Below are positions 1,866 through 10,994 of a stretch of 11,766 nt of DNA, one piece after another. Both the position numbers and the translations under genes were made by a program. How positions within the stretch are numbered: the stretch's first letter is position 1; each line of letters starts with the position of its first letter. Origin of the DNA: a bacterium (lineage in GTDB: Bacteria > RBG-13-66-14); contig JAIOSI010000090.1 in assembly GCA_021107695.1 (NCBI GenBank), positions 1-11,766 on the forward strand, given 5' to 3'. The notes below the pieces were generated by a model. The model had not been told where the DNA came from. It saw only the letters and a list, made by a program, of their open reading frames with translations, and ran no database searches.

Positions 1866-2708
1866 TTATCCGCTGATGTCCTTCCGGCTGTCGGTAACAT
1901 CCTCGGAAATTCCGGCAACCATCCAGATGTTGCCCTCTTCACCGGGAATTGGGAAGGCACGGTCGTGGATCCAGCGTACCTGACCCTCGTGGTCGATGAT
2001 CCGATAGACCTCGTCGTAGGTACCGAGGATGGCGTTGGTCGAGAAGGAATCAACTATGCGGGCGCGGTCTTCGGGGTGAACGTTAGCAGACCAGCTCCAG
2101 CCCTGGACATAGAGACTTTCGCGGGAGTAGCCCCAGATTGCCTCGTAGGCGGCACTGATGTAGAGAACCTGCTGGTTGTCCCAGTCGGTGATCCAGAGTG
2201 CCAGGTTGACGTTATCCAGCAGCAAACGCAGTAGCTCCAACTCGGTGATTGTGCCGTCCTTCGCCCGCTGTGCCAACCGCTCCAGATTCAGGTTTTGCCG
2301 CTGCAATGTAACATCGCGCAGGAAGACAACCGCCCGGTCTGGCTCACCCTCTTCGTCTGCCAGCGGAAACGCCTGAGCCTCGATAATCAGCTCGCCACCG
2401 CCGGAGTGGTAAGTTTGCTCTGCGGTAACGGACTCGCCAGTTTCAAAGGCTTTTCGAAGCGGGCAGGTGTGCAGCTCGTTATCGCAGGGAGAGTGGTTGA
2501 GGTGCATTGCATCGTAAAAGTATCGCTTCAATGCTTCTTCTTCGGGCAGGTCAAAGTGCGTCAGTGCCGCCTCGTTAATCGCCAGGACTCGATAGTCCCT
2601 GGCGAGGATCAGGACGCAGCTGGGGTGCTTTTGAAGAAACCCCAATCCTTGCTCGTCCGGATACTGAAGCGCACTGTTACCAAATTCAGGATTTGCTCCA
2701 GAGCTCAC
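1866..2708 (-). CDS. soluble tandem PAS-domain protein without output domain
   Basis: Two PAS domains fill this protein. The first (about residues 20-135) contains LILARDYRVLAINEAAL and a cysteine-bearing loop (HSPCDNELHTCPLRKAFETGES), and ends in VVFLRDVTLQRQ. The second (about 155-275) is PAS_3-like with VLYISAAYEAIWGYSRESL, HPEDRARI and VRWIHDRAFP, ending AGISEDVTDSRK. There is no kinase, GGDEF or HTH domain and no membrane helix, so it may be a stand-alone sensor or a truncated kinase. I chose GTG at 2706-2708 because GGGAGGGG lies four bases upstream; an ATG at 2727-2729 would add seven residues but lacks a ribosome site. A promoter lies upstream at 2764-2792, and the shared terminator lies about 45 bases beyond the stop. 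Confidence 0.85.
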   Translation of the reverse strand: MSSGANPEFGNSALQYPDEQGLGFLQKHPSCVLILARDYRVLAINEAALTHFDLPEEEALKRYFYDAMHLNHSPCDNELHTCPLRKAFETGESVTAEQTYHSGGGELIIEAQAFPLADEEGEPDRAVVFLRDVTLQRQNLNLERLAQRAKDGTITELELLRLLLDNVNLALWITDWDNQQVLYISAAYEAIWGYSRESLYVQGWSWSANVHPEDRARIVDSFSTNAILGTYDEVYRIIDHEGQVRWIHDRAFPIPGEEGNIWMVAGISEDVTDSRKDISG

Positions 2709-2763
2709 GATACCCCTCCCTGACCTCATGCCATGGAAATAGGTTATGTTTTTATCCGAGAAC

Positions 2764-2792
2764 AGTTTACCAGAGTGAGCTGATTAGGTAAA
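2764..2792 (-). promoter_or_regulatory. sigma70-like promoter for the PAS-PAS gene
   Basis: On the minus strand TTTACC (2792-2787), 17 bases and TAAACT (2769-2764) give a plausible promoter. The -35 equals that proposed for the kinase operon at 6532-6560. It lies immediately outside the left end of the inverted-repeat element at 2799. Confidence 0.45.
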
Positions 2793-2798
2793 GTTTTT

Positions 2799-3164
2799 TG
2801 GATAATCATTTGAAACCGGACCAGCAAAGCGGCTACGGCATGAATTGCGCCCAAATCGTACTCCGGCTAAGAGAGAGGCGGTGGCGGGATCCTCTGGCTG
2901 CTTTCACCTGGGCATAGCTAGTTTTACGCAGCGTGCCACCACCGTCCCTGCGCCTTTTTCGGAGGTGTAATGCAGTTCCGGCTGATGAAGCAGATAGGCA
3001 AAAATGTTCGCTAAAAATAACCATATCAACTTGATATTTACAACGTTATAGACTTGCCATCTCCTGTACCAGTCGTAAAAATCCCCTATACCATCAAATC
3101 AACAGAACCTCTAACCCTGCCACTATTAGTCGTATAGATTGGTTCACGGCTGAGTGATTATACC
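2799..3164 (+). mobile_element. MITE-like element, copy 1 (366 bp)
   Basis: This intergenic stretch aligns along nearly its whole length with the reverse complement of 8300-8737. The best part is 2932-3132 against 8390-8592, where I estimate about four in five bases agree. The ends are imperfect terminal inverted repeats: GGATAATCATTTGAA at the left and the complement of TGAGTGATTATACC at the right. It contains a 15-bp perfect palindrome (ATATCA-ACT-TGATAT, 3023-3037) and a degenerate leftward sigma54-like box at 2938-2928 whose -24 to -12 spacing is 3 bp short. Compared with copy 2 it lacks about 57 bp near the right end. No transposase or clear target duplication is visible. Confidence 0.6.
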
Positions 3165-3177
3165 AAGATGAAACTGA

Positions 3178-4524
3178 TTAAGTAATGTCGTACTCTATCA
3201 GGCGGCGGCGTAGCGTTGAAAGCGAGAGTCCCAGCGCGTTGGCGGTGAGCTGGCGATTGCCCTGATAATGCGCCATTGCCCGGATGATCAGCTCCCGCTC
3301 CATCTCATCCAGCGGGCGAATACTGCCAGTTACCTCAGCGGGATTGGTGCTTTGTTGTGGGGTTGCCTGGAGGAGTGAAGCCGGATCGGGCAAGCCGCCA
3401 GCTGCCAGAATCACCGCTCGTTCAAGGATGTTGCGCAGCTCACGGGCGTTACCGGGCCAGGGATAGCCAGCAAGTGACTTCAGCTGCTCCGCCGGAAGCG
3501 AGGTTATGGTTCCTCCGGTAAGTCCCTTCAGGAGAGAAGCTGCGATTTTGGGGATGTCGCTCAGTCTTTGACGCAGCGGCGGAATCTGGATGGTAATCAC
3601 CGCCAGTCGGTAGTAAAGGTCCCGGCGGAAGCGTCCGGCGGCGATCTCCTCGTCGAGGTTGCGATTCGAGGTCGCGATTACCCGGACATTAATGCTGACT
3701 TCGTTACTTCCACCGAGGCGTCGCAGGCGGCATTCCTCAAGGACACTCAGGAGTTTGCTCTGGAGTTGCAGGGGCATCTCGGAGATTTCATCTAGAACGA
3801 GGGTGCCGCCATCGGCCAGCTCGAAGACCCCTTTGCGGCGGGTGGTGGCTCCGGTAAAGGCACCCTTCTCATGACCGAACAGCTCGCTTTCGATCAGCGA
3901 TTCGGGGATGGCGGCGCAGTTGAGGGTAATCAGGCTGCCACTATCTCCGACGAGGCGATGGATGGCGCGAGCGGCAACATCCTTACCAACACCAGTTTCA
4001 CCGGTAATCAACACCGTTGCCCGGCTTCCCGCTGCCATCTTGACCAGTTGGCGAATCTCCTGAATCGCCGGAGAATCACCCTCGATGGTATCGCATTGCT
4101 TTCTGCTTCGCAGACGATAGCTGCTGACTCGTTCCCGCTGTTCCAGATTGCTCATCTCAACGGAGTTGCGGATCGACAGGTAAAGCTCGTCGAGGTCCAG
4201 GGGCTTGCTCAGATAATCGTATGCCCCCGCCTGAATCGCTTCCACGGCGGCGCGATAGCTGCCGAAGGCGGTAGCGAAGATGATCTTTGTCTCCGAGTTT
4301 AACTTCACCAGCTCCCGACAAACGGCAAGACCATCGTCGCCTGCAGACAGGTTCTGATCAAGGAGAACGACATCGGGCTGCCAGTTGCGAAACTGCTCAA
4401 TTCCGCTGGCTCTGGTCTGAGCCGACCGCGCCTGATAGCCCTCCATCCGCAAGCCATCGCAGATAGACTCGCAGAAGGCGACATCGTCGTCAATAACCAG
4501 AACTTTGGCTTCTTTGGGGGACAT
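3178..4524 (-). CDS. NtrC-family sigma54-dependent response regulator
   Basis: This full-length 448-residue activator has three domains. The receiver (1-120) has the acidic pocket IDDD, phospho-acceptor D56, T85 and K107. The AAA+ sigma54-interaction domain (about 146-375) has Walker A GETGVGKD (175-182), the sigma54-contact loop GAFTGA (221-226), Walker B LVLDEI (242-247) and the arginine-finger region RFRRDLYYRL. The Fis-type helix-turn-helix is at about 408-448 (NRQLTANALGLSLSTLRRRL). Once phosphorylated, such proteins bind enhancer DNA and remodel sigma54 polymerase. It starts 36 bases after the kinase gene, in the same direction, so it is that kinase's likely partner. The ATG has only a weak ribosome site, which may mean translational coupling. 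Likely targets include the Roadblock operon at 8087. Confidence 0.97.
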   Translation of the reverse strand: MSPKEAKVLVIDDDVAFCESICDGLRMEGYQARSAQTRASGIEQFRNWQPDVVLLDQNLSAGDDGLAVCRELVKLNSETKIIFATAFGSYRAAVEAIQAGAYDYLSKPLDLDELYLSIRNSVEMSNLEQRERVSSYRLRSRKQCDTIEGDSPAIQEIRQLVKMAAGSRATVLITGETGVGKDVAARAIHRLVGDSGSLITLNCAAIPESLIESELFGHEKGAFTGATTRRKGVFELADGGTLVLDEISEMPLQLQSKLLSVLEECRLRRLGGSNEVSINVRVIATSNRNLDEEIAAGRFRRDLYYRLAVITIQIPPLRQRLSDIPKIAASLLKGLTGGTITSLPAEQLKSLAGYPWPGNARELRNILERAVILAAGGLPDPASLLQATPQQSTNPAEVTGSIRPLDEMERELIIRAMAHYQGNRQLTANALGLSLSTLRRRLIEYDIT

Positions 4525-4560
4525 TTGTTTAATGTCAGGGTTGTTTGCTGGTGCTGATTG

Positions 4561-6474
4561 TTACGCTGCAGGGAAGCGGATTTCGAATTTTGCTCCCTTG
4601 CCCGGTTTACTGTCCAGACGTACGGCTCCGCCCATCTGTTGCATCAGCTTCTGGACAATTGCCAGCCCCAGACCACTGCCATCCCGACGGGTGGTGTACA
4701 GCGGGGCAAATACCTTGTACTGCTCTTCTTCGGCAATACCAACGCCGTTGTCGCTGACCCGGAGGTAAAGCCAATCTGTGTCCCAACGGGTAGAAATTGT
4801 TATCGTTGGATTGTCGCAATCCTGAGTGGCGTGAATGGCGTTATCCACCAGATTGAGGATGATCCTCATCAGAGCGTCGCGGTCGGCTTTAGTGATTTTA
4901 TCGTGAGAACCTGGCTGATAATTCATCCTCACTCCGGCACTCTTCGCGTTGTCAATCAGGATGCCGATTTTTTCTGTAACGAAGCGGTCGAGATGCAGCT
5001 TCTCCGGCTCCAGCTCGTCGAACTTCTGATATTCCTTAAGCACCCGCAGCATCTGCTCGGCACTCTTGAAGGTGTCCAACGCCCGCTGGAAGTAGATGTC
5101 GCGTTTCTCTGTGGAGAAGCGGTCGATGTTTGTGTACAGCACGTTTAGCGTTGTCTTGAGTGTGTTGAGGGCGTTGCCGATCTCGTGGCGGATGGCGGAG
5201 AATATCTGCTCGATCTGCCGGAACATTGCCTGACGCTGTCTTGTCTCGTTGGCTTCGCGGAGTGCCTTCTCCGCTTTTTTCATTGCCGTAATATCCCTGG
5301 CAACATGCACCACGCCAATCAGCCCTTCATTCTCGTTAACAAGGGGCGTAACACTGATATATAGAAACGTGTCATCTTCGGGGTTGTGGAACTCGCTGCT
5401 CAGAACCTCTTTGGTTTTGAGTGGCGACTTTCGGAGGCGGGTTTCTCTGAGCATAACCAGACCGTCATGATACCACTCATTACACCGGGTTCCGATCATC
5501 TCTTTTGGTTTCACGTTGAAGTACTCCGCGCAGCTTCGGTTAACCCGCTCTATCACACCATTGGGATCAACAACCATGATCTGATCAGGCACGGTATCGA
5601 AGGTATGTTCCCATTGTTGCTTGCCCCGTTCGATGACTTTCTGAATCTGCTTGCGCTCGGTGATGTCGGTCATCTGGACAATCATGTAGTCAACGGAGTT
5701 GTCTTCAGCGATGATAAAGTCAATGCTGAGGTCAACGATAATTGAGTCGCCGTTTTTCTTCAGGAAGGTCAGTTCGGCGGAATGACTACCGTGCAGACTA
5801 GCAAGCTCCTCGTGAGTTTCCGTATTTAGTGCGCCATTAAACAACCTGTCATCTTTTTTGGCCAGTAGCTCAAAGAGGGGATGGCCATGAAGCTCATCAT
5901 CCTGATAACCGAGGATCCGACAGAAAGCAGGGTTGACCATTGAAATTCGGATTTCGCGATCCGTGAGGGCGATGCCGACGGGGGAGTTCTTCCAGATGGA
6001 ACGATAACGCTCCTCGGACTTTCTCAATTCCTCTTCGGCCTGTTTGCGGCGGGTGATGTCCACAACATATCCAAGATAATGGGTAATGTTTCCCGCCTCA
6101 TTTCTGAGAATTGTTGTGTGATCAATAAGCCAGATTATCTCGCCATCTTTGCGGATAACCCGGTAAGGCTCATGTTCAAACTTACTTGCTCCGCTTTCGC
6201 TGAAGTGCCTGACCTCACTGCCAATGCGTTCGACATCATCCTTGTGGAGAATGTCGGCATATAAAATCTTGCCGGAAGTCCAGTCGCTGGCTAAGTAGCC
6301 AAAGATACTCTCAACATCTTCCGAGACGTACTCAACGGGCCAGCCTTCTTCGTTTCTCCACTTAAAGATAACCACGCTTCCAGTAAGAAACATGTTTTGT
6401 CCCTCAAGCGAGAGCTGGTACACCTGTTCTTGTACCTTCTCAGCCAGTTTTTGGTCATTTTTACCAGATGTCAT
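4561..6474 (-). CDS. soluble triple-PAS, NtrB-like sensor histidine kinase
   Basis: The 637-residue kinase has no membrane segment, so it should sense a cytoplasmic cue. PAS domain 1 (about 30-145) ends YLGYVVDITRRKQAE, PAS 2 (about 150-275) ends IVQMTDITERKQ, and PAS 3 (about 285-402) ends VVHVARDITAMKKAE. The dimerisation helix carries AIRHEIGNALNTLK with phospho-acceptor H430; the HEIGN form is nearer NtrB/AtoS-type kinases than HELRTPL kinases. The ATPase domain has the N box ILNLVDNAIHAT (540-550), DNGVGIA (575-581) and GSGLGLAIVQKL (599-610). AAGGA precedes the ATG by about seven bases. A sigma70-like promoter lies 58 bases upstream of the start. The NtrC-type regulator gene follows in the same operon and is the expected phosphate acceptor. 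Confidence 0.95.
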   Translation of the reverse strand: MTSGKNDQKLAEKVQEQVYQLSLEGQNMFLTGSVVIFKWRNEEGWPVEYVSEDVESIFGYLASDWTSGKILYADILHKDDVERIGSEVRHFSESGASKFEHEPYRVIRKDGEIIWLIDHTTILRNEAGNITHYLGYVVDITRRKQAEEELRKSEERYRSIWKNSPVGIALTDREIRISMVNPAFCRILGYQDDELHGHPLFELLAKKDDRLFNGALNTETHEELASLHGSHSAELTFLKKNGDSIIVDLSIDFIIAEDNSVDYMIVQMTDITERKQIQKVIERGKQQWEHTFDTVPDQIMVVDPNGVIERVNRSCAEYFNVKPKEMIGTRCNEWYHDGLVMLRETRLRKSPLKTKEVLSSEFHNPEDDTFLYISVTPLVNENEGLIGVVHVARDITAMKKAEKALREANETRQRQAMFRQIEQIFSAIRHEIGNALNTLKTTLNVLYTNIDRFSTEKRDIYFQRALDTFKSAEQMLRVLKEYQKFDELEPEKLHLDRFVTEKIGILIDNAKSAGVRMNYQPGSHDKITKADRDALMRIILNLVDNAIHATQDCDNPTITISTRWDTDWLYLRVSDNGVGIAEEEQYKVFAPLYTTRRDGSGLGLAIVQKLMQQMGGAVRLDSKPGKGAKFEIRFPAA

Positions 6475-6531
6475 CGCAATTCCTTCAGCCGTGGGTGAAT
6501 AGACTTCAGACAGCCTCGCACCACTGTAAAG

Positions 6532-6560
6532 ATTCTAGCAGAGTACAATAAAGAGGTAAA
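6532..6560 (-). promoter_or_regulatory. sigma70-like promoter for the kinase-NtrC operon
   Basis: Minus-strand TTTACC (6560-6555), a 17-base spacer and TAGAAT (6537-6532) lie upstream of the kinase gene, giving a leader of roughly 50 bases. It makes the kinase-activator operon separable from the Roadblock operon upstream. Confidence 0.6.
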
Positions 6561-6584
6561 GTAGCGGGAGCGACAACCGCAACC

Positions 6585-6610
6585 GGGGCGGAAGTGAAAC
6601 CTCCCGCCCC
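6585..6610 (-). terminator. GC-rich hairpin after the 61-residue gene
   Basis: Leftward RNA forms a 10-bp stem, GGGGCGGGAG with CTTCCGCCCC (one G-U pair), around a 6-base loop, starting 27 bases past the small gene's stop. No U-tract follows, so it could be a 3'-end stabiliser or an attenuator between the two operons rather than a strong intrinsic terminator. Confidence 0.45.
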
Positions 6611-6636
6611 TGTTTTGGCTCTTATGTGTTATGTCG

Positions 6637-6822
6637 CTACATCGGAGCTGTACCCAGTACCGTCTGAACCGCCTGGGTCAGCTTTGCTACACTGTCCGGT
6701 GTATCGTCGTCCTTCGCCGCCATATTGCTACTGATACCAGAAATCTTGGCGATTTGCATCTTCTGAGGCATCGTGGCGTTGGCGTTGATGTACTCGTAGA
6801 TCTTTACAAGTTGGGCAGCCAT
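6637..6822 (-). CDS. 61-residue protein of unknown function, partner gene of the Roadblock regulator
   Basis: This is a small soluble protein with no signal peptide, membrane helix or Cys cluster. The N-terminal half is helical and mildly amphipathic (MAAQLVKIYEYINAN..MPQKMQIAKISGIS). The middle is polar and acidic (AAKDDDTPDS), and a second helix follows (VAKLTQAVQTVLG). I do not recognise the family. AGGA lies nine bases before the ATG, and the gene starts 26 bases after the Roadblock regulator's stop in the same direction. This argues for a real translated gene in the same sigma54-driven transcript. By position it could be an adaptor or effector for the regulator, but nothing in the sequence proves this. 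Confidence 0.7.
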   Translation of the reverse strand: MAAQLVKIYEYINANATMPQKMQIAKISGISSNMAAKDDDTPDSVAKLTQAVQTVLGTAPM

Positions 6823-6848
6823 GATTCAGTTCCTTTCAATCTTTTGGG

Positions 6849-8087
6849 TTAGCGCAGAATGTCGGCACTCTTCTGGGCGAAGGATTCGAGACGCATCTTG
6901 ACCATCCCGATGGGTGAATCGTGATCTATCATCAGCACGACGTGGAAGTGTGCCTTGCCCGGATCTTTCTTGAGCGGATCGGTTCCCTCGTTCATACACA
7001 GCCCGAAGAGATGAGCATCGTCACTCTCGACGTGAACAAGGTGTCCGGCGGAAATCCCAATCTCCTTGGTCAGCTTTTGAGCATCGTAGAGCAGGCTGTT
7101 AACATCCACGCCGAACTTGTCAATCTCCAGCCCACCAGTTGCGTGTTTACCCATCAGTTCACCAGCCGGGGTGAAAACGGCGATTCCGTGGAATCCATCC
7201 AGGTTGTTGAATTCCGCCATCAGATCTTTGAGACTAGCCATAACTTCCTCCTCTAAATCAAACTTTGGTGCTGACATCTCTTTTTCAATCTCAGCAGCCG
7301 GGTTAGGTTCAGGTTCACTTTCAACAGTTAGCTCATCGCTTTCTTCGATCAGTTCCAGTGCCTTGCTCAGGCTGTCCGCCTCCAATACCGGTTTTGTTGG
7401 AGCCTTGCCCCTGTTCTCTTCATCGGCAAGGCGTAACGCCTCCATCTGCAGCTCCATCATCGGCGTTTTGATGCGACGCTTAAAGACAGGACGCTGCTTC
7501 TTAACCGTAATCGTTACATCTTCCCAGGACATGATCTTCAGTGCTGCTTCGTCTGGCTTCAGCTTGCCCAGAGTGGCGTCGAAGAGCTTGCCCCGGGCGA
7601 AGCGCAGAACACCGGTATCTCCCCAGATGGAGCTGTGGATGTCCAGCCGACAGGTCTTCTGCTCCATCTCGATTAGCTGAAGAAAGCTGCTCAGGGTAAC
7701 GCCGCGGAGTTTACCCTCTCTGCCCCAGCTATCGGCGGCCTTGCCGATCAGTCGGTACAGTTCGTCTATCTCGATCGGTTTCTCGATATACGAGATCGAG
7801 TAGTCGTCGAAGGCGCGTTCGATATCCTGGGTGCCATAGGCGGTCATAACGATGCAGGGCAGCTCCGGGAACTCTTTAACGGCGCGGGCAATCAGATCAA
7901 AGCCATCCATCCGGGGCATCTTCAGATCGGTAACCATTACACCGATGTTGCCTTCCTGGAGTATCTCCAGAGCCTGTCGTCCGTTGTAGGCAACCCGATA
8001 GCTGAAGTTATCGGTGTTCTGCTCCAGCCCGTCAATCAGACTCTCCAGGAAGACTTCATCATCATCTACGATAAGAACTTTCATCAT
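6849..8087 (-). CDS. receiver-PATAN(DUF4388)-Roadblock/LC7 response regulator
   Basis: The 412-residue protein has no DNA-binding domain. The receiver (1-118) has IVDDDE, D54, MTAYG with T82, and K103 followed by P104. Residues about 126-205 resemble the DUF4388/PATAN domain: LRGVTLSSFLQLIEMEQKTC, then GVLRFARGKLFDATLG and an EAALKIMSWED segment. A charged, Glu/Pro-rich linker (about 215-275) follows. The C-terminus (about 280-412) looks like a Roadblock/LC7-type domain (ASLKDLMAEFNNLDGFHGIAVF..GELMGKH and a late HVVLMIDHD strand). Roadblock domains in bacteria, such as MglB, regulate small Ras-like GTPases in motility and polarity; no such GTPase lies in this window. AGGAGGT sits seven bases before a double ATG. 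A sigma54 promoter and palindrome cluster lie upstream. It is the first gene of a two-gene operon. Confidence 0.93.
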   Translation of the reverse strand: MMKVLIVDDDEVFLESLIDGLEQNTDNFSYRVAYNGRQALEILQEGNIGVMVTDLKMPRMDGFDLIARAVKEFPELPCIVMTAYGTQDIERAFDDYSISYIEKPIEIDELYRLIGKAADSWGREGKLRGVTLSSFLQLIEMEQKTCRLDIHSSIWGDTGVLRFARGKLFDATLGKLKPDEAALKIMSWEDVTITVKKQRPVFKRRIKTPMMELQMEALRLADEENRGKAPTKPVLEADSLSKALELIEESDELTVESEPEPNPAAEIEKEMSAPKFDLEEEVMASLKDLMAEFNNLDGFHGIAVFTPAGELMGKHATGGLEIDKFGVDVNSLLYDAQKLTKEIGISAGHLVHVESDDAHLFGLCMNEGTDPLKKDPGKAHFHVVLMIDHDSPIGMVKMRLESFAQKSADILR

Positions 8088-8117
8088 TGTTTACCTCCTT
8101 TCTCACTTGCTCATAGA

Positions 8118-8134
8118 AGCAAGAGTCGTGCCAA
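8118..8134 (-). promoter_or_regulatory. sigma54 (-24/-12) promoter for the Roadblock operon
   Basis: The minus strand reads TTGGCACGACTCTTGCT, an essentially perfect match to the TGGCACG-N4-TTGCW consensus, with invariant GG and GC at the correct 10-bp spacing. The predicted start near 8107 leaves a short leader to the ribosome site and ATG at 8087. An NtrC-type activator with an intact GAFTGA loop is encoded in the same locus. Confidence 0.8.
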
Positions 8135-8212
8135 TTTTTAACAAGAAGCGCGGGTTGTGTGCTGGCCGTGGTTTACAGAGCCTGACCCGATGTACCGAAT
8201 CCGACAGAAGCC

Positions 8213-8262
8213 ATGAACTGTTCATAATGAAGTTCATTTTGAACGGATTGTTCATTCTGAAC
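8213..8262. promoter_or_regulatory. palindrome cluster, likely enhancer (UAS) for a sigma54 activator
   Basis: Two perfect-arm 13-mers of form GTTCA-N3-TGAAC occupy 8232-8244 and 8250-8262. A third with one mismatch is at 8220-8232, and ATGAAC-T-GTTCAT overlaps it at 8213-8225. Their centres fall about 119, 131 and 149 bp upstream of the predicted sigma54 start, the usual enhancer range. The local activator at 3178-4524 is the obvious candidate binder (inference). Confidence 0.6.
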
Positions 8263-8299
8263 GACTTGGTCGCCAAGTGAACTACAACCAATTATTCAG

Positions 8300-8737
8300 G
8301 GGAGAATCACTCAACAGCGTACCTGCTTGAGAGAGTAACTTATGACTATTATGCTAGTTACAGGCTGTTCTCGAAGACACTTCCAAGACGGCTAAAAGTG
8401 GCAGGGTCAGAGGCTCGGTTGATTTGATGGTGTGGGGGATTTTTACGGTTAGTATCGGCGAGGGTATATTTATAACATTGTATACATCAAGCTGATATGG
8501 TTCTTTTTTACAGCGAGCATCTTTGCTTGTCTGCCTCATCAGCCGGAGCTGCATTACACCTCCGAAAAAGGCGTAGGGACGGCGGTGGCACGCTTCTTGC
8601 GTAGCTTATAACCTGCCTGTCTACTTGCAGTTACCCGCAGCAACAATCGCGCCACCGCCTGCATTTTAGCCGGATTGCAGATTCGAGGTAATTTACGCAA
8701 CAGCCGCTCTACGAGTCCAGTTTTGAGTGATTATCCC
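8300..8737 (-). mobile_element. MITE-like element, copy 2 (438 bp)
   Basis: The reverse-oriented partner of 2799-3164. Its ends are 15-bp terminal inverted repeats with one mismatch: GGGAGAATCACTCAA (8300-8314) and TTGAGTGATTATCCC (8723-8737). The core 8390-8592 is the best-conserved part. Inside lie a rightward sigma54-like promoter (8586-8600), a palindrome (8484-8498), and arms GGCGGTGGC (8581-8589) and GCCACCGCC (8651-8659). A leftward 66-codon frame (8354-8554) starts at an ATG behind GGAGG. No transposase is encoded, so the element would be non-autonomous. No clear target-site duplication was found. Confidence 0.65.
8586..8600 (+). promoter_or_regulatory. sigma54-like promoter inside element copy 2
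   Basis: TGGCACG (8586-8592), CTTC and TTGC (8597-8600) keep the strict GG/GC spacing; the next base is G where A or T is usual. The start would be near 8612, reading toward padR. A 15-bp near-palindrome (ACATCA-AGC-TGATAT, 8484-8498) is centred about 121 bp upstream, matching the geometry of the Roadblock operon promoter. No clear ORF follows before the padR region, so a small RNA or long leader is possible. Confidence 0.5.
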
Positions 8738-8796
8738 TTATCCCGGAACCGAATCGACACCTCCGCCGTAAACGAGTCAACAGTCAACTGCTGCAG

Positions 8797-8872
8797 GCTG
8801 GAGTAGTCCAGAGCAAAAATAACCCTTGACAATCCTCAGGGGAAAAACTACACTACGCGAAACTACTCCAGC
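8797..8872. repeat. perfect 11-bp inverted repeat bracketing the padR promoter
   Basis: GCTGGAGTAGT (8797-8807) and ACTACTCCAGC (8862-8872) are exact reverse complements, 54 bp apart, with the whole -35/-10 promoter between them. They could be two operator sites for looping repression or recombination arms of an invertible promoter. Confidence 0.7.
8826..8854 (+). promoter_or_regulatory. strong sigma70-type promoter for padR-tolC
   Basis: TTGACA (8826-8831), a 17-base spacer and TACACT (8849-8854) give a perfect -35 and a -10 matching at four of six positions. The predicted start near 8861 leaves a leader of about 114 bases before the PadR ATG. Confidence 0.75.
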
Positions 8873-8876
8873 GTAG

Positions 8877-8897
8877 AGTACACTGCTCTGGTGTACT
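8877..8897. promoter_or_regulatory. operator-like palindrome downstream of the padR promoter
   Basis: Perfect 7-bp arms AGTACAC and GTGTACT are separated by seven bases, about 17-37 bases after the predicted start. The position suits repression by road-block or by overlap with initial transcription. PadR proteins commonly bind dyads near their own promoters, so autoregulation is the simplest reading (inference). Confidence 0.6.
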
Positions 8898-8974
8898 TTG
8901 GGCTAGAATTGAGATGATTGCTCTCAGCGTAATCAGCGGTTGCTGGTCAACGGCGAAGAAGTACAAAGGAAACG

Positions 8975-9610
8975 ATGTTTAAGGAAACAGCGAAAAGCAG
9001 CGGGATTCCCTTTGCCGAGGTGGTTGTTCTGGGTCTGCTGGCAGAGAAACCATGTTACGGCTATGAAATTGACAGCGAGATCAAGGCTCGTGGTCTAAAT
9101 CAGTGGGGTCATATCGCCTTTTCCTCAATCTACTACCTCCTTGGCAAGCTCGAAAAGCAGGGCTACGTAACCTTCCATCATCATAAAGAAGGCAAGTATC
9201 CCACCCGGAAGGTCTATTCACTCACCGAATCGGGTCGGGTCTTCTTAAAGGAGGGATTGCTGACGCTGCTCACCTCCGATGAGTCCAGGGAGGTGTGCAT
9301 TATGGGTGCTGCTTTTATCCATGTCTTGGAAAAGGAGGTCGCCCTGAAGGCATTACGGCAACAGCTCGATGGATTCAACAAACATGCCCAAAAGATTAAA
9401 GGGCATTTCGTGAAGATGACGAAGGTCTATCCCTTCCCCAACGCCGTGGCCCTGGCATCACTGGCCGAGCGGATGCACTCAACCATAACCACCTGGCTGT
9501 CAGAGTTTATCGATACTTTAGAAGATTATCCCTGGGAAAACTGGCAAAAGGTTTCCGAACGGGAAGTTAACGATTGTGTTTCCTGTGATGAAGAGGAAGA
9601 AGATGTCTAA
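8975..9610 (+). CDS. PadR-family transcriptional regulator
   Basis: The 211-residue protein has an N-terminal winged helix (about 15-92): VVVLGLLAEKPCYGYEIDSE, a recognition region HIAFSSIYYLLGKLEKQGYV, a wing with HHHKEGKYPTRKVYSLT and ESGRVFLKEG. The rest (about 95-195) is the helical dimerisation arm of the longer PadR subfamily (Vir_act_alpha_C type). The C-terminal tail (CVSCDEEEEDV) is acidic with two Cys. AAGGA precedes the ATG. The stop overlaps the start of the TolC-like gene, so the two are co-translated from one promoter. PadR proteins often repress adjacent efflux genes in response to small molecules, which fits here. Confidence 0.93.
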   Translation: MFKETAKSSGIPFAEVVVLGLLAEKPCYGYEIDSEIKARGLNQWGHIAFSSIYYLLGKLEKQGYVTFHHHKEGKYPTRKVYSLTESGRVFLKEGLLTLLTSDESREVCIMGAAFIHVLEKEVALKALRQQLDGFNKHAQKIKGHFVKMTKVYPFPNAVALASLAERMHSTITTWLSEFIDTLEDYPWENWQKVSEREVNDCVSCDEEEEDV

Positions 9611-10994
9611 CACCGGACGAATTACTCTGTTCCTGACCCTGACTCTGCTCGCCGGCTCGTTCACCGCTGGCGAAGTAGTCGTCTCTGCTCCTCCCGCGCT
9701 GGAGGACAACCTCCTGACCATTGACGAGGCGGTGGAGCTGGCGATGCTCAATAACCTCGACCTGCGGATGGCGAATGCCGATCTCGACTCTGCCAATGCC
9801 GCCAACTGGTCGGCGTGGACGAACTTCCTGCCCCAGGTCGCGGGCTCGGTAACCTATACGAAGTACGAAGGTTTCCCGACCTCTGGCGGAAGTGGTGGCG
9901 ACGGCGCGCCCACCGGACCGATGGACATCGAGATGGAGAGCTACTCCACGGCGTTAACGGTTTCTCAGCCGCTCTTCAACGGCGGGGCGATCTACTGGGG
10001 TAAGGTGATGGCGGGAGCCGGAGCCGAGATGGCAGAGCTTAGTCAGGAGGCCGCCCGTCAGACGGCGATCCTCACCACCCGCACGGCATTCCTCGACCTG
10101 CTCAAGGCCCAGGAGTTCCGCACCGTCCAGGAAAAGAACCTGGAGAGCCTGGCGGAACACCTGAGCCTGACCGAGTCTAACCTCGCCGTGGGGCTGGCTT
10201 CACGAGCCGATCACCTCCGCTCGATCTCCGAACATGCCGAGGCGGAAAAGCTGCTCATCACCGCTGACCACTCCGTTCGCCTCGCCCGGGGTGCGCTGGA
10301 AAACACCCTCGGCCTCGACCTTCCCGACAGCGTGGAGGTGGTTCCCGTCGGTGAGATTACCGTGAGCGAATCCACCCTGAGTCTGGAAGAGACCCTCGCC
10401 CTCGTCCGTCGATACAATCCCGCCCTCATCGCCGTACGCAAAACAGAACGCCTCGCCGAGGCTTCCGTCGGTCTGGCAGCCTCCGCCTTCTGGCCCAAAC
10501 TCAACCTCGGCGGAAGCTACGGCTGGGCAAACGGTTCCGACCTCACCTTCAGCGACGACAACGACTACTGGGCAATCAACATCATCGCCTCCTTCGATAT
10601 CTTTACCTCGACCCAGCGCGTAGCCGAGATGGCAAAAGCCCGCGCCGACGAGCACAAGAGCCTGGCGCAAATCGAGAAGACCGAGCGGGAGATGTTCCTC
10701 GGTGCCGAGGCGAGCTACCTTCAACTAAACACCGCCGCCAAGACCATCGAGGTTTCCGAGAAGCAGCTCGCCGCCGCCGCCGAGGGTCTTGACCTGACCA
10801 CCAACATGTACGAGCAGGGGCTGGTCTCCAACGCTGACTATCTGGACATGAACGTCAACTACCTCTACGCCAAGCTCGGCGAGATATCCGCCCGCTACGA
10901 CTACCTCGCCGCCCGTGAGTCCCTCGCCTCCTTCACCGGTCAGCAACGCGGTGCGTTGCATCACAGTATCGCGGCTGAAGAAACAGCGGATTAA
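9603..10994 (+). CDS. TolC-family outer-membrane efflux protein
   Basis: The 463-residue protein is normal for the family. A signal peptide (about 1-22, ITLFLTLTLLAGSFTAG) leads into two OEP repeats. Repeat one (about 38-235) has LTIDEAVELAMLNNLDLRMA, FLPQVAGSVTYTKYEG, LTVSQPLFNGG and long coiled helices. Repeat two (about 250-440) has LSLEETLALVRRYNPALIAV, FWPKLNLGGSYG, IIASFDIFTS and YEQGLVSNADYLDMNVNYL. It would form the outer-membrane exit duct of a tripartite pump; no inner-membrane pump or adaptor lies in the window. I chose ATG 9603, with GAGG six bases upstream and an 8-base overlap with padR. ATG 9588 would add five residues, four of them basic or Lys-rich, and is possible. The last 20 or so residues lie in a sequence duplicated downstream. 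Confidence 0.94.
   Translation: MSNTGRITLFLTLTLLAGSFTAGEVVVSAPPALEDNLLTIDEAVELAMLNNLDLRMANADLDSANAANWSAWTNFLPQVAGSVTYTKYEGFPTSGGSGGDGAPTGPMDIEMESYSTALTVSQPLFNGGAIYWGKVMAGAGAEMAELSQEAARQTAILTTRTAFLDLLKAQEFRTVQEKNLESLAEHLSLTESNLAVGLASRADHLRSISEHAEAEKLLITADHSVRLARGALENTLGLDLPDSVEVVPVGEITVSESTLSLEETLALVRRYNPALIAVRKTERLAEASVGLAASAFWPKLNLGGSYGWANGSDLTFSDDNDYWAINIIASFDIFTSTQRVAEMAKARADEHKSLAQIEKTEREMFLGAEASYLQLNTAAKTIEVSEKQLAAAAEGLDLTTNMYEQGLVSNADYLDMNVNYLYAKLGEISARYDYLAARESLASFTGQQRGALHHSIAAEETAD

Follow-up and report, generated by a model that had tools for sequence, protein, structure and literature searches.

A predicted sigma54 promoter with an upstream activating array ahead of a receiver-PATAN-Roadblock gene in an uncultured bacterial family

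The window, positions 1 to 11,766 of contig JAIOSI010000090.1 of assembly GCA_021107695.1, raises the question of how its gene for a receiver-PATAN-Roadblock response regulator is switched on. A sigma54-like site and a cluster of palindromes precede this gene, and genes for a sensor kinase and an NtrC-type activator follow it. From sequence comparison we propose, at a probability of roughly 0.78, that the gene has a sigma54 promoter with an upstream activating array, and that the NtrC-type protein encoded at 3178-4524 drives it in a transcriptional cascade.

Promoter and palindrome array of the target gene

The elements at the promoter are the following.

6849-8087, minus strand: target gene, 412 codons, with a receiver domain (D53 if numbered from the second Met), DUF4388/PATAN and a Roadblock-type C-terminus (residues ~277-410)
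8101-8094, minus strand: ribosome-binding site AAAGGAGG, read from the sequence, with the ATG at 8087
8134-8118, minus strand: sigma54 -24/-12 element TTGGCACGACTCTTGCT, a 17-mer assigned by sequence match and conservation among orthologues
8220-8232, no strand: activator palindrome 1, GTTCATAATGAAG, one mismatch, predicted activator site
8232-8244, no strand: activator palindrome 2, GTTCATTTTGAAC, exact, predicted activator site
8250-8262, no strand: activator palindrome 3, GTTCATTCTGAAC, exact, predicted activator site

The 17-mer is near-consensus. It lies 30 nt 5' of the target gene and carries the GG of the -24 and the GC of the -12 element at the canonical spacing of a sigma54 promoter. 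A matrix with weights drawn from the sigma54 literature gives it 20.5 out of a possible 21.4 bits, and dinucleotide shuffling of the 120 nt ahead of the target gene does not reach this score once in 2000 trials. The near-perfect sigma54 site claimed by the sequence-only reading is present, and a sigma54 site is conserved in all seven genomes compared below. Transcription from sigma54 promoters starts 12 nt after the GC of the -12 element; the predicted start is 8107. Across the 1.83 Mb assembly there are five exact copies of TGGCACGNNNNTTGCW and none of its reversed control. With up to two mismatches the pattern is found three times in the window against 1.7 expected, which is not striking.

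The palindromes are of the type GTTCA-N3-TGAAC, with three copies at 8220-8262 at unequal spacings of 12 and 18 bp. Their centres at 8226, 8238 and 8256 lie 119, 131 and 149 bp before 8107, the distances first read from the sequence. The exact GTTCANNNTGAAC is found at only four places in the 1.83 Mb assembly, two in the array and two within ORFs as called in the present analysis. With up to two mismatches, 14 palindromes are found in the window against 5.0 expected, and none of 200 shuffles reaches 14. We also fetched 30 of the 318 exact sigma54 sites. Two or more copies of TCA-N3-TGA within 260 bp are seen only at the window promoter and at a divergent promoter of one relative (G002); two further loci have one copy and 26 have none.

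Conservation in the family and the candidate activator

The comparison set comprises seven genomes of one uncultured family, the window genome (G000) and six relatives (G001 to G006). An orthologue of the target gene is present in all seven, with 47-67% identity over the aligned part in the six relatives. In each genome a sigma54 site lies 16-30 nt 5' of the start codon, at a score that 0 of 2000 shuffles reach (20.5 bits in G000, 21.4 in G001, 18.2 in G002, 21.0 in G003, 14.0 in G004, and 18.2 in both G005 and G006). The presence of a sigma54 gene had been named as a check, and its outcome is divided: searches with the Pfam family and a family RpoN protein give no rpoN match in the window assembly, which is 70.6% complete, and G006 has none either, while five of the seven family genomes and all four near-complete ones carry a match, in two pieces in G004.

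The core TCA-N3-TGA occurs in all seven 300-bp upstream regions, with 13 copies in total; the best of the 63 other palindromes of the form NNN-N3-reverse complement reaches three copies in three of these regions. Two or three intact copies are present in each of G000, G002, G003, G004 and G005, a number that no more than 5 of 2000 shuffles attain. In G001 and G006 only one copy is intact, as many as are found in 127 and 150 of 2000 shuffles, respectively. Upstream dyad sites of the kind expected for a UAS are in this sense conserved among the orthologues (core 7/7, more than one intact copy 5/7). The conservation on which the sequence-only reading had staked its palindromes thus holds for the core and fails for the 13-bp form: exact GTTCA-N3-TGAAC is found at the target gene in G000 and G003 only, and these sites are 3 of its 18 places across the seven genomes. 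Spacing between palindromes is 14 bp in G002, G004 and G005 and 31 bp in G003, and the distance to the promoter varies from about 79 to 217 bp among the seven genomes.

In G002, G004, G005 and G006 the pair of sites lies between two divergent sigma54 sites, one for each direction. In G002, G004 and G005 the opposite sigma54 site points towards kinase-like ORFs and, at the operon end, the NtrC orthologue; the G006 contig stops within the kinases of the divergent operon. In G002, for example, the target gene diverges from a group made up of a 61-codon ORF, three kinase-like ORFs and the NtrC orthologue. The spaced palindrome pair with at most one mismatch is found at four places in the seven genomes, all of them before the target gene. 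With two mismatches there are six places, and three of the six precede a receiver gene adjoining an NtrC paralogue; the reversed control of this search gives two places. The target gene of G006 is interrupted in its assembly (L158 5537-6449), by assembly error or by decay, and retains its sigma54 site and one palindrome intact.

In the window, the genes and elements 3' of the target gene are the following.

6637-6822, minus strand: 61-aa ORF directly 3' of the target gene
6585-6610, minus strand: GC-rich hairpin after the 61-aa ORF, with no T run and outside the terminator list
6532-6560, minus strand: sigma70-like promoter candidate before the kinase gene, TTTACC, 17 nt and TAGAAT, with TG before the -10-like part
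4561-6474, minus strand: sensor kinase with three PAS domains, H-box RHEIGN and HATPase
3178-4524, minus strand: NtrC-type activator with receiver, AAA+ domain with Walker A GETGVGK (175) and GAFTGA (221), and Fis-type HTH with SLSTLRRRL

The 61-aa ORF (6822-6637) is putatively coding and probably cotranscribed with the target gene, and these two probably make up the whole sigma54 operon; the hairpin at 6585-6610 is a possible end of the transcript. The divergent operons of G002 and G006 also start with 61-aa ORFs, which look unrelated to the one in the window. Kinase (6474-4561) and activator (4524-3178) follow on the same strand, and the candidate at 6532-6560 weakly suggests a sigma70-like promoter of their own; seven such sites are found in 2700-9000 against 4.4 expected by chance.

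The 3178-4524 protein has the full set of NtrC-family features, namely receiver, AAA+ domain, Walker A, intact GAFTGA and Fis-type HTH. Its orthologue is encoded on the contig of the target gene in five of the seven genomes (G000, G002, G003, G004 and G005); in G001 it lies on a different contig. In G006 only fragments of NtrC-type genes were seen at comparable identity, on other contigs. The recognition helix SLSTLRRRL is common to the window protein and the orthologues in G001, G002, G004 and G005, and reads SISTLRRRL in G003.

We regard it as unlikely that the promoter is of sigma54 type with palindromes bound by a different activator, for example a paralogue of the NtrC-type protein or a bEBP whose gene lies in the part of the genome absent from the assembly. 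The relatives do possess another NtrC that shares 52-56% identity with the window protein and has the similar helix SLSTLRRRV, or SLSTIHRRL and SLSTVHRRL, and similar sites lie near it in G002, G005, G006 and G003. The paralogue beside the two-mismatch pairs has SLSTLRRR in both cases in which its end is on the contig. Because of these paralogues with a similar helix, the binder may differ in the relatives. In addition, the partial window genome already yields four strong bEBP matches. The four other activator helices readable there, from three strong matches and one fragment, however differ from SLSTLRRRL, so that the helix of the window protein is the only fitting one among those readable. 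Its orthologue is moreover the one found on the target gene's contig in most of the genomes and in the divergent operons of G002, G004 and G005.

Counting against the evidence from sites beside paralogues, no sigma54 site of at least 13.5 bits is found between the sites and the paralogue-adjacent receiver gene in G002, G005 and G006; one of 13.7 bits is present in G004. In G003, two more sites, 19 bp apart, lie just after the paralogue, and the paralogue gene itself is preceded by a 20.5-bit sigma54 site.

A palindrome alone cannot distinguish activator from repressor, and the irregular spacing of the copies would also suit an operator for a repressor or for a regulator unrelated to the sigma54 promoter. 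We consider such an operator highly improbable, since the sites stand about 79-217 bp upstream of the promoter, a usual location of activator sites at sigma54 promoters, are flanked by divergent sigma54 sites in four of the relatives and are found again next to NtrC paralogues. Direct control of the target gene by the NtrC-type protein of the same locus, as proposed from the window sequence, is instead favoured by the 7/7 conservation, the shared contig in five of the seven genomes, the shared helix and the sites beside paralogues.

The promoter elements and their conservation, together with the helix match and the domains of the proteins, lead us to infer phosphorylation, binding and transcription as follows. 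The PAS kinase would phosphorylate the NtrC-type regulator, which would then bind the TCA-N3-TGA palindromes as dimers and assemble on them into an active AAA+ ring. This ring would loop to sigma54-RNA polymerase at 8118-8134 and open the promoter, switching on the receiver-PATAN-Roadblock gene and the 61-aa ORF. One two-component system would in this way feed a second, non-DNA-binding response regulator. The sequence-only reading spoke of a two-tier phosphorelay. That term is unjustified, because the evidence, one response regulator controlling transcription of another, supports a transcriptional link only.

The target protein and related systems

The C-terminal piece of the target protein matches no Pfam Roadblock model at E up to 1 and no Pfam family above cut-off. 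Its AlphaFold model (pLDDT 87) has the alpha-beta-beta-alpha-beta-beta-beta-alpha order of the Roadblock/LC7 fold. The best PDB match in Foldseek is chain C of 6izw, an MglA-MglB entry from Myxococcus (E 1.9e-9), and Thermus MglB 1j3w is matched as well (E 3.9e-9). A profile built from six sequences matches two Roadblock chains, with E values of 2.7e-5 (Robl_LC7) and 7.9e-4. As the Pfam model is unmatched, we call the C-terminus Roadblock-type by fold and PDB profile. The description of the target as a Roadblock response regulator is consequently borne out for the window gene, by its MglB-like predicted fold, and does not extend to the six relatives, whose target gene lacks a full Roadblock domain (judged in G004 from a match ending at residue 312). 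The conserved target is therefore a receiver-PATAN protein. Stand-alone relatives of the Roadblock-type domain are encoded in G001 and G003.

Beyond the family, a deltaproteobacterial MAG (L072) and an Archangium MAG (L073) match the target over its full length, and L077 does so more weakly. The named loci do not show that receiver-DUF4388 genes are generally under sigma54 control: a site is found at 2 of 76 named loci, namely L072 and L073, against 9 of 935 background ORFs, which is no clear enrichment (76 of 79 loci were used; two were dropped for short upstream sequence and one for a match starting at residue 121). The site in the Archangium MAG is weak, a 13.1-bit sigma54-like match 46 bp before the full-length homologue, comparable in position to the window site.

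The window genome also encodes a GTPase that matches MglA of M. xanthus (E 1.5e-91). At L246:564-2831 an MglB-like gene is followed by this MglA GTPase and a PATAN-like gene; the MglB-like and PATAN-like genes were named by eye. The pair of MglB-like and MglA genes is present in all seven family genomes. In the seven mglBA loci there is no sigma54 site of at least 13 bits, and TCA-N3-TGA occurs only singly. Since the C-terminus has a predicted MglB fold and the genome encodes MglA and MglB, it is a reasonable guess that the output protein may act on the MglA/MglB polarity GTPase system, as judged from the modelled fold and the presence of these genes. The arrangement resembles MglA-MglB-RomR in that the window target joins a receiver N-terminus to a predicted MglB fold and the family encodes the MglB-MglA pair. 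It differs in that the target gene of the other six genomes has no full Roadblock domain.

The kind of control is already known and belongs to a textbook class of mechanism; the instance in this uncultured family is new. NorR sites have the core GTCA-N3-TGAC and hence share TCA-N3-TGA with the sites in the window. In Escherichia coli, three enhancer sites upstream of the sigma54 promoter of norVW are essential and form a scaffold for the NorR oligomer (PMC2941729). The window likewise has three predicted activator sites ahead of its sigma54 promoter. NorR, however, has a NO-responsive GAF domain, whereas the window activator has a receiver and an adjoining kinase, and its target is a response regulator gene. 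Nla28 of Myxococcus xanthus is a sigma54 activator that directly regulates genes of other regulators through clustered repeats; 8-bp direct repeats are proposed, and the regulator genes given as its targets code for activators (EBPs) (PMC9765219). The window system would share clustered repeats and sigma54 control of a regulator gene, but the window target has no DNA-binding domain, in contrast to the EBP targets named for Nla28. In Desulfovibrio vulgaris, 22 EBPs are response regulators, UAS lie at least 100 bp upstream, and EBP motifs were predicted by genome comparison, one of them yGTCA-N6-TGACr (PMC4641369). These two-component sigma54 regulons with upstream UAS are alike in kind, although the organism is another one and yGTCA-N6-TGACr is unlike the window motif. 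The available portions of the PATAN, Roadblock and Mgl literature on response regulators or sigma54, PMC11580455 and PMC9481161 included, describe no such promoter. With the proposed control the uncultured family gains a well-supported link from NtrC through sigma54 to a receiver-PATAN-Roadblock protein, with a site motif that can be tested. As MglB and MglA are encoded in this genome too, the link suggests that the amount of a polarity-type regulator is set by sigma54 in the lineage.

The dispersed hairpin repeat and other sigma54 sites

A second sigma54-like site, at 8586-8601 on the plus strand, belongs to a dispersed repeat.

8500-8700, plus strand: dispersed repeat copy with a hairpin at 8585-8655, whose sigma54-like arms are 8585-8601 (plus) and 8639-8655 (minus); not a conserved promoter

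Searching the assembly with the repeat gives 15 matches, which fall at 13 distinct places, that of the window copy among them. Only 4 of the 13 places keep the sigma54-like left arm intact; in the rest it is altered or absent. We considered and rejected the 8586 site as a divergent sigma54 promoter of the PadR gene, given its position within the repeat, the few intact arms and the finding that 8586-8990, ahead of PadR, holds no plus-strand ORF of at least 30 codons with an ATG or GTG start. Two inverted copies of the repeat, which is about 250 bp long, lie at 8500-8700 (plus) and 3021-2930 (minus) and flank the activator, kinase and target genes.

Hairpins with sigma54-like arms are common in G001 and G003. 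Exact sigma54 sites number 163 in G001 and 134 in G003, whereas the reversed pattern occurs once in G001 and never in G003; among the sites listed most have one spacer per genome. Ten such loci were fetched from these two genomes: seven are hairpins, two run off the contig end and one is neither. With seven hairpins among ten loci and a repeat copy at 8500-8700, the site at 8118 might be a by-product of the repeat with its sigma54-like arms, but this has scarcely any probability, since the site is without an inverted partner and recurs at the same place in all seven genomes, there too without a hairpin partner. A diverged copy of the hairpin lies 450 bp upstream of the promoter.

For the hairpins themselves, 25 elements were extracted (13 from G003, 10 from G001, 2 from G000). 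The sigma54 pattern is conserved in them by construction, because extraction required it in both arms. The outer stem pairs throughout in G003 (104 of 104 positions) and for the larger part in G001 (56 of 72) and G000 (11 of 16). Of the 25 elements, 23 lie outside called ORFs. The two arms of a hairpin carry convergent matches to the sigma54 consensus (L176, L183, L189, L190, L196, L199, L200, L236-L245 and window 8585-8655). Rfam at the gathering threshold gives no family in the window or in nine repeat loci, and in the literature on dispersed inverted repeats with sigma54 nothing fits among the matches listed (the best 8 of 9). It is a long shot that the hairpins capture sigma54 polymerase, either as a sink across the genome or as mobile promoters; if so, the sigma54 network of the family would be shaped by a repeat element.

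Other exact sigma54 sites in the family precede groES-like genes (L173, L192, L198), an Hsp20-type gene (L172) and genes for sigma70-family sigma factors (L175, L179, L187, L195). The identities of L173, L172 and L175 were checked, and L192, L198, L179, L187 and L195 were assigned by similar sequence. Such placements suggest that sigma54 controls a stress response in the family. At G000:C236:3133-3860 (L161, L185) an identical sigma54 17-mer stands before a gene for a 212-aa protein that bears cysteines and contains three similar stretches. This protein has no NCBIfam match, and its gene lies downstream of another pair of kinase-like and NtrC-type genes. Finally, the PadR and TolC-type outer membrane genes of the window (8975-10994) have counterparts, 45% and 52% identical, near the NtrC orthologue of G001 (L160:11186-13173).
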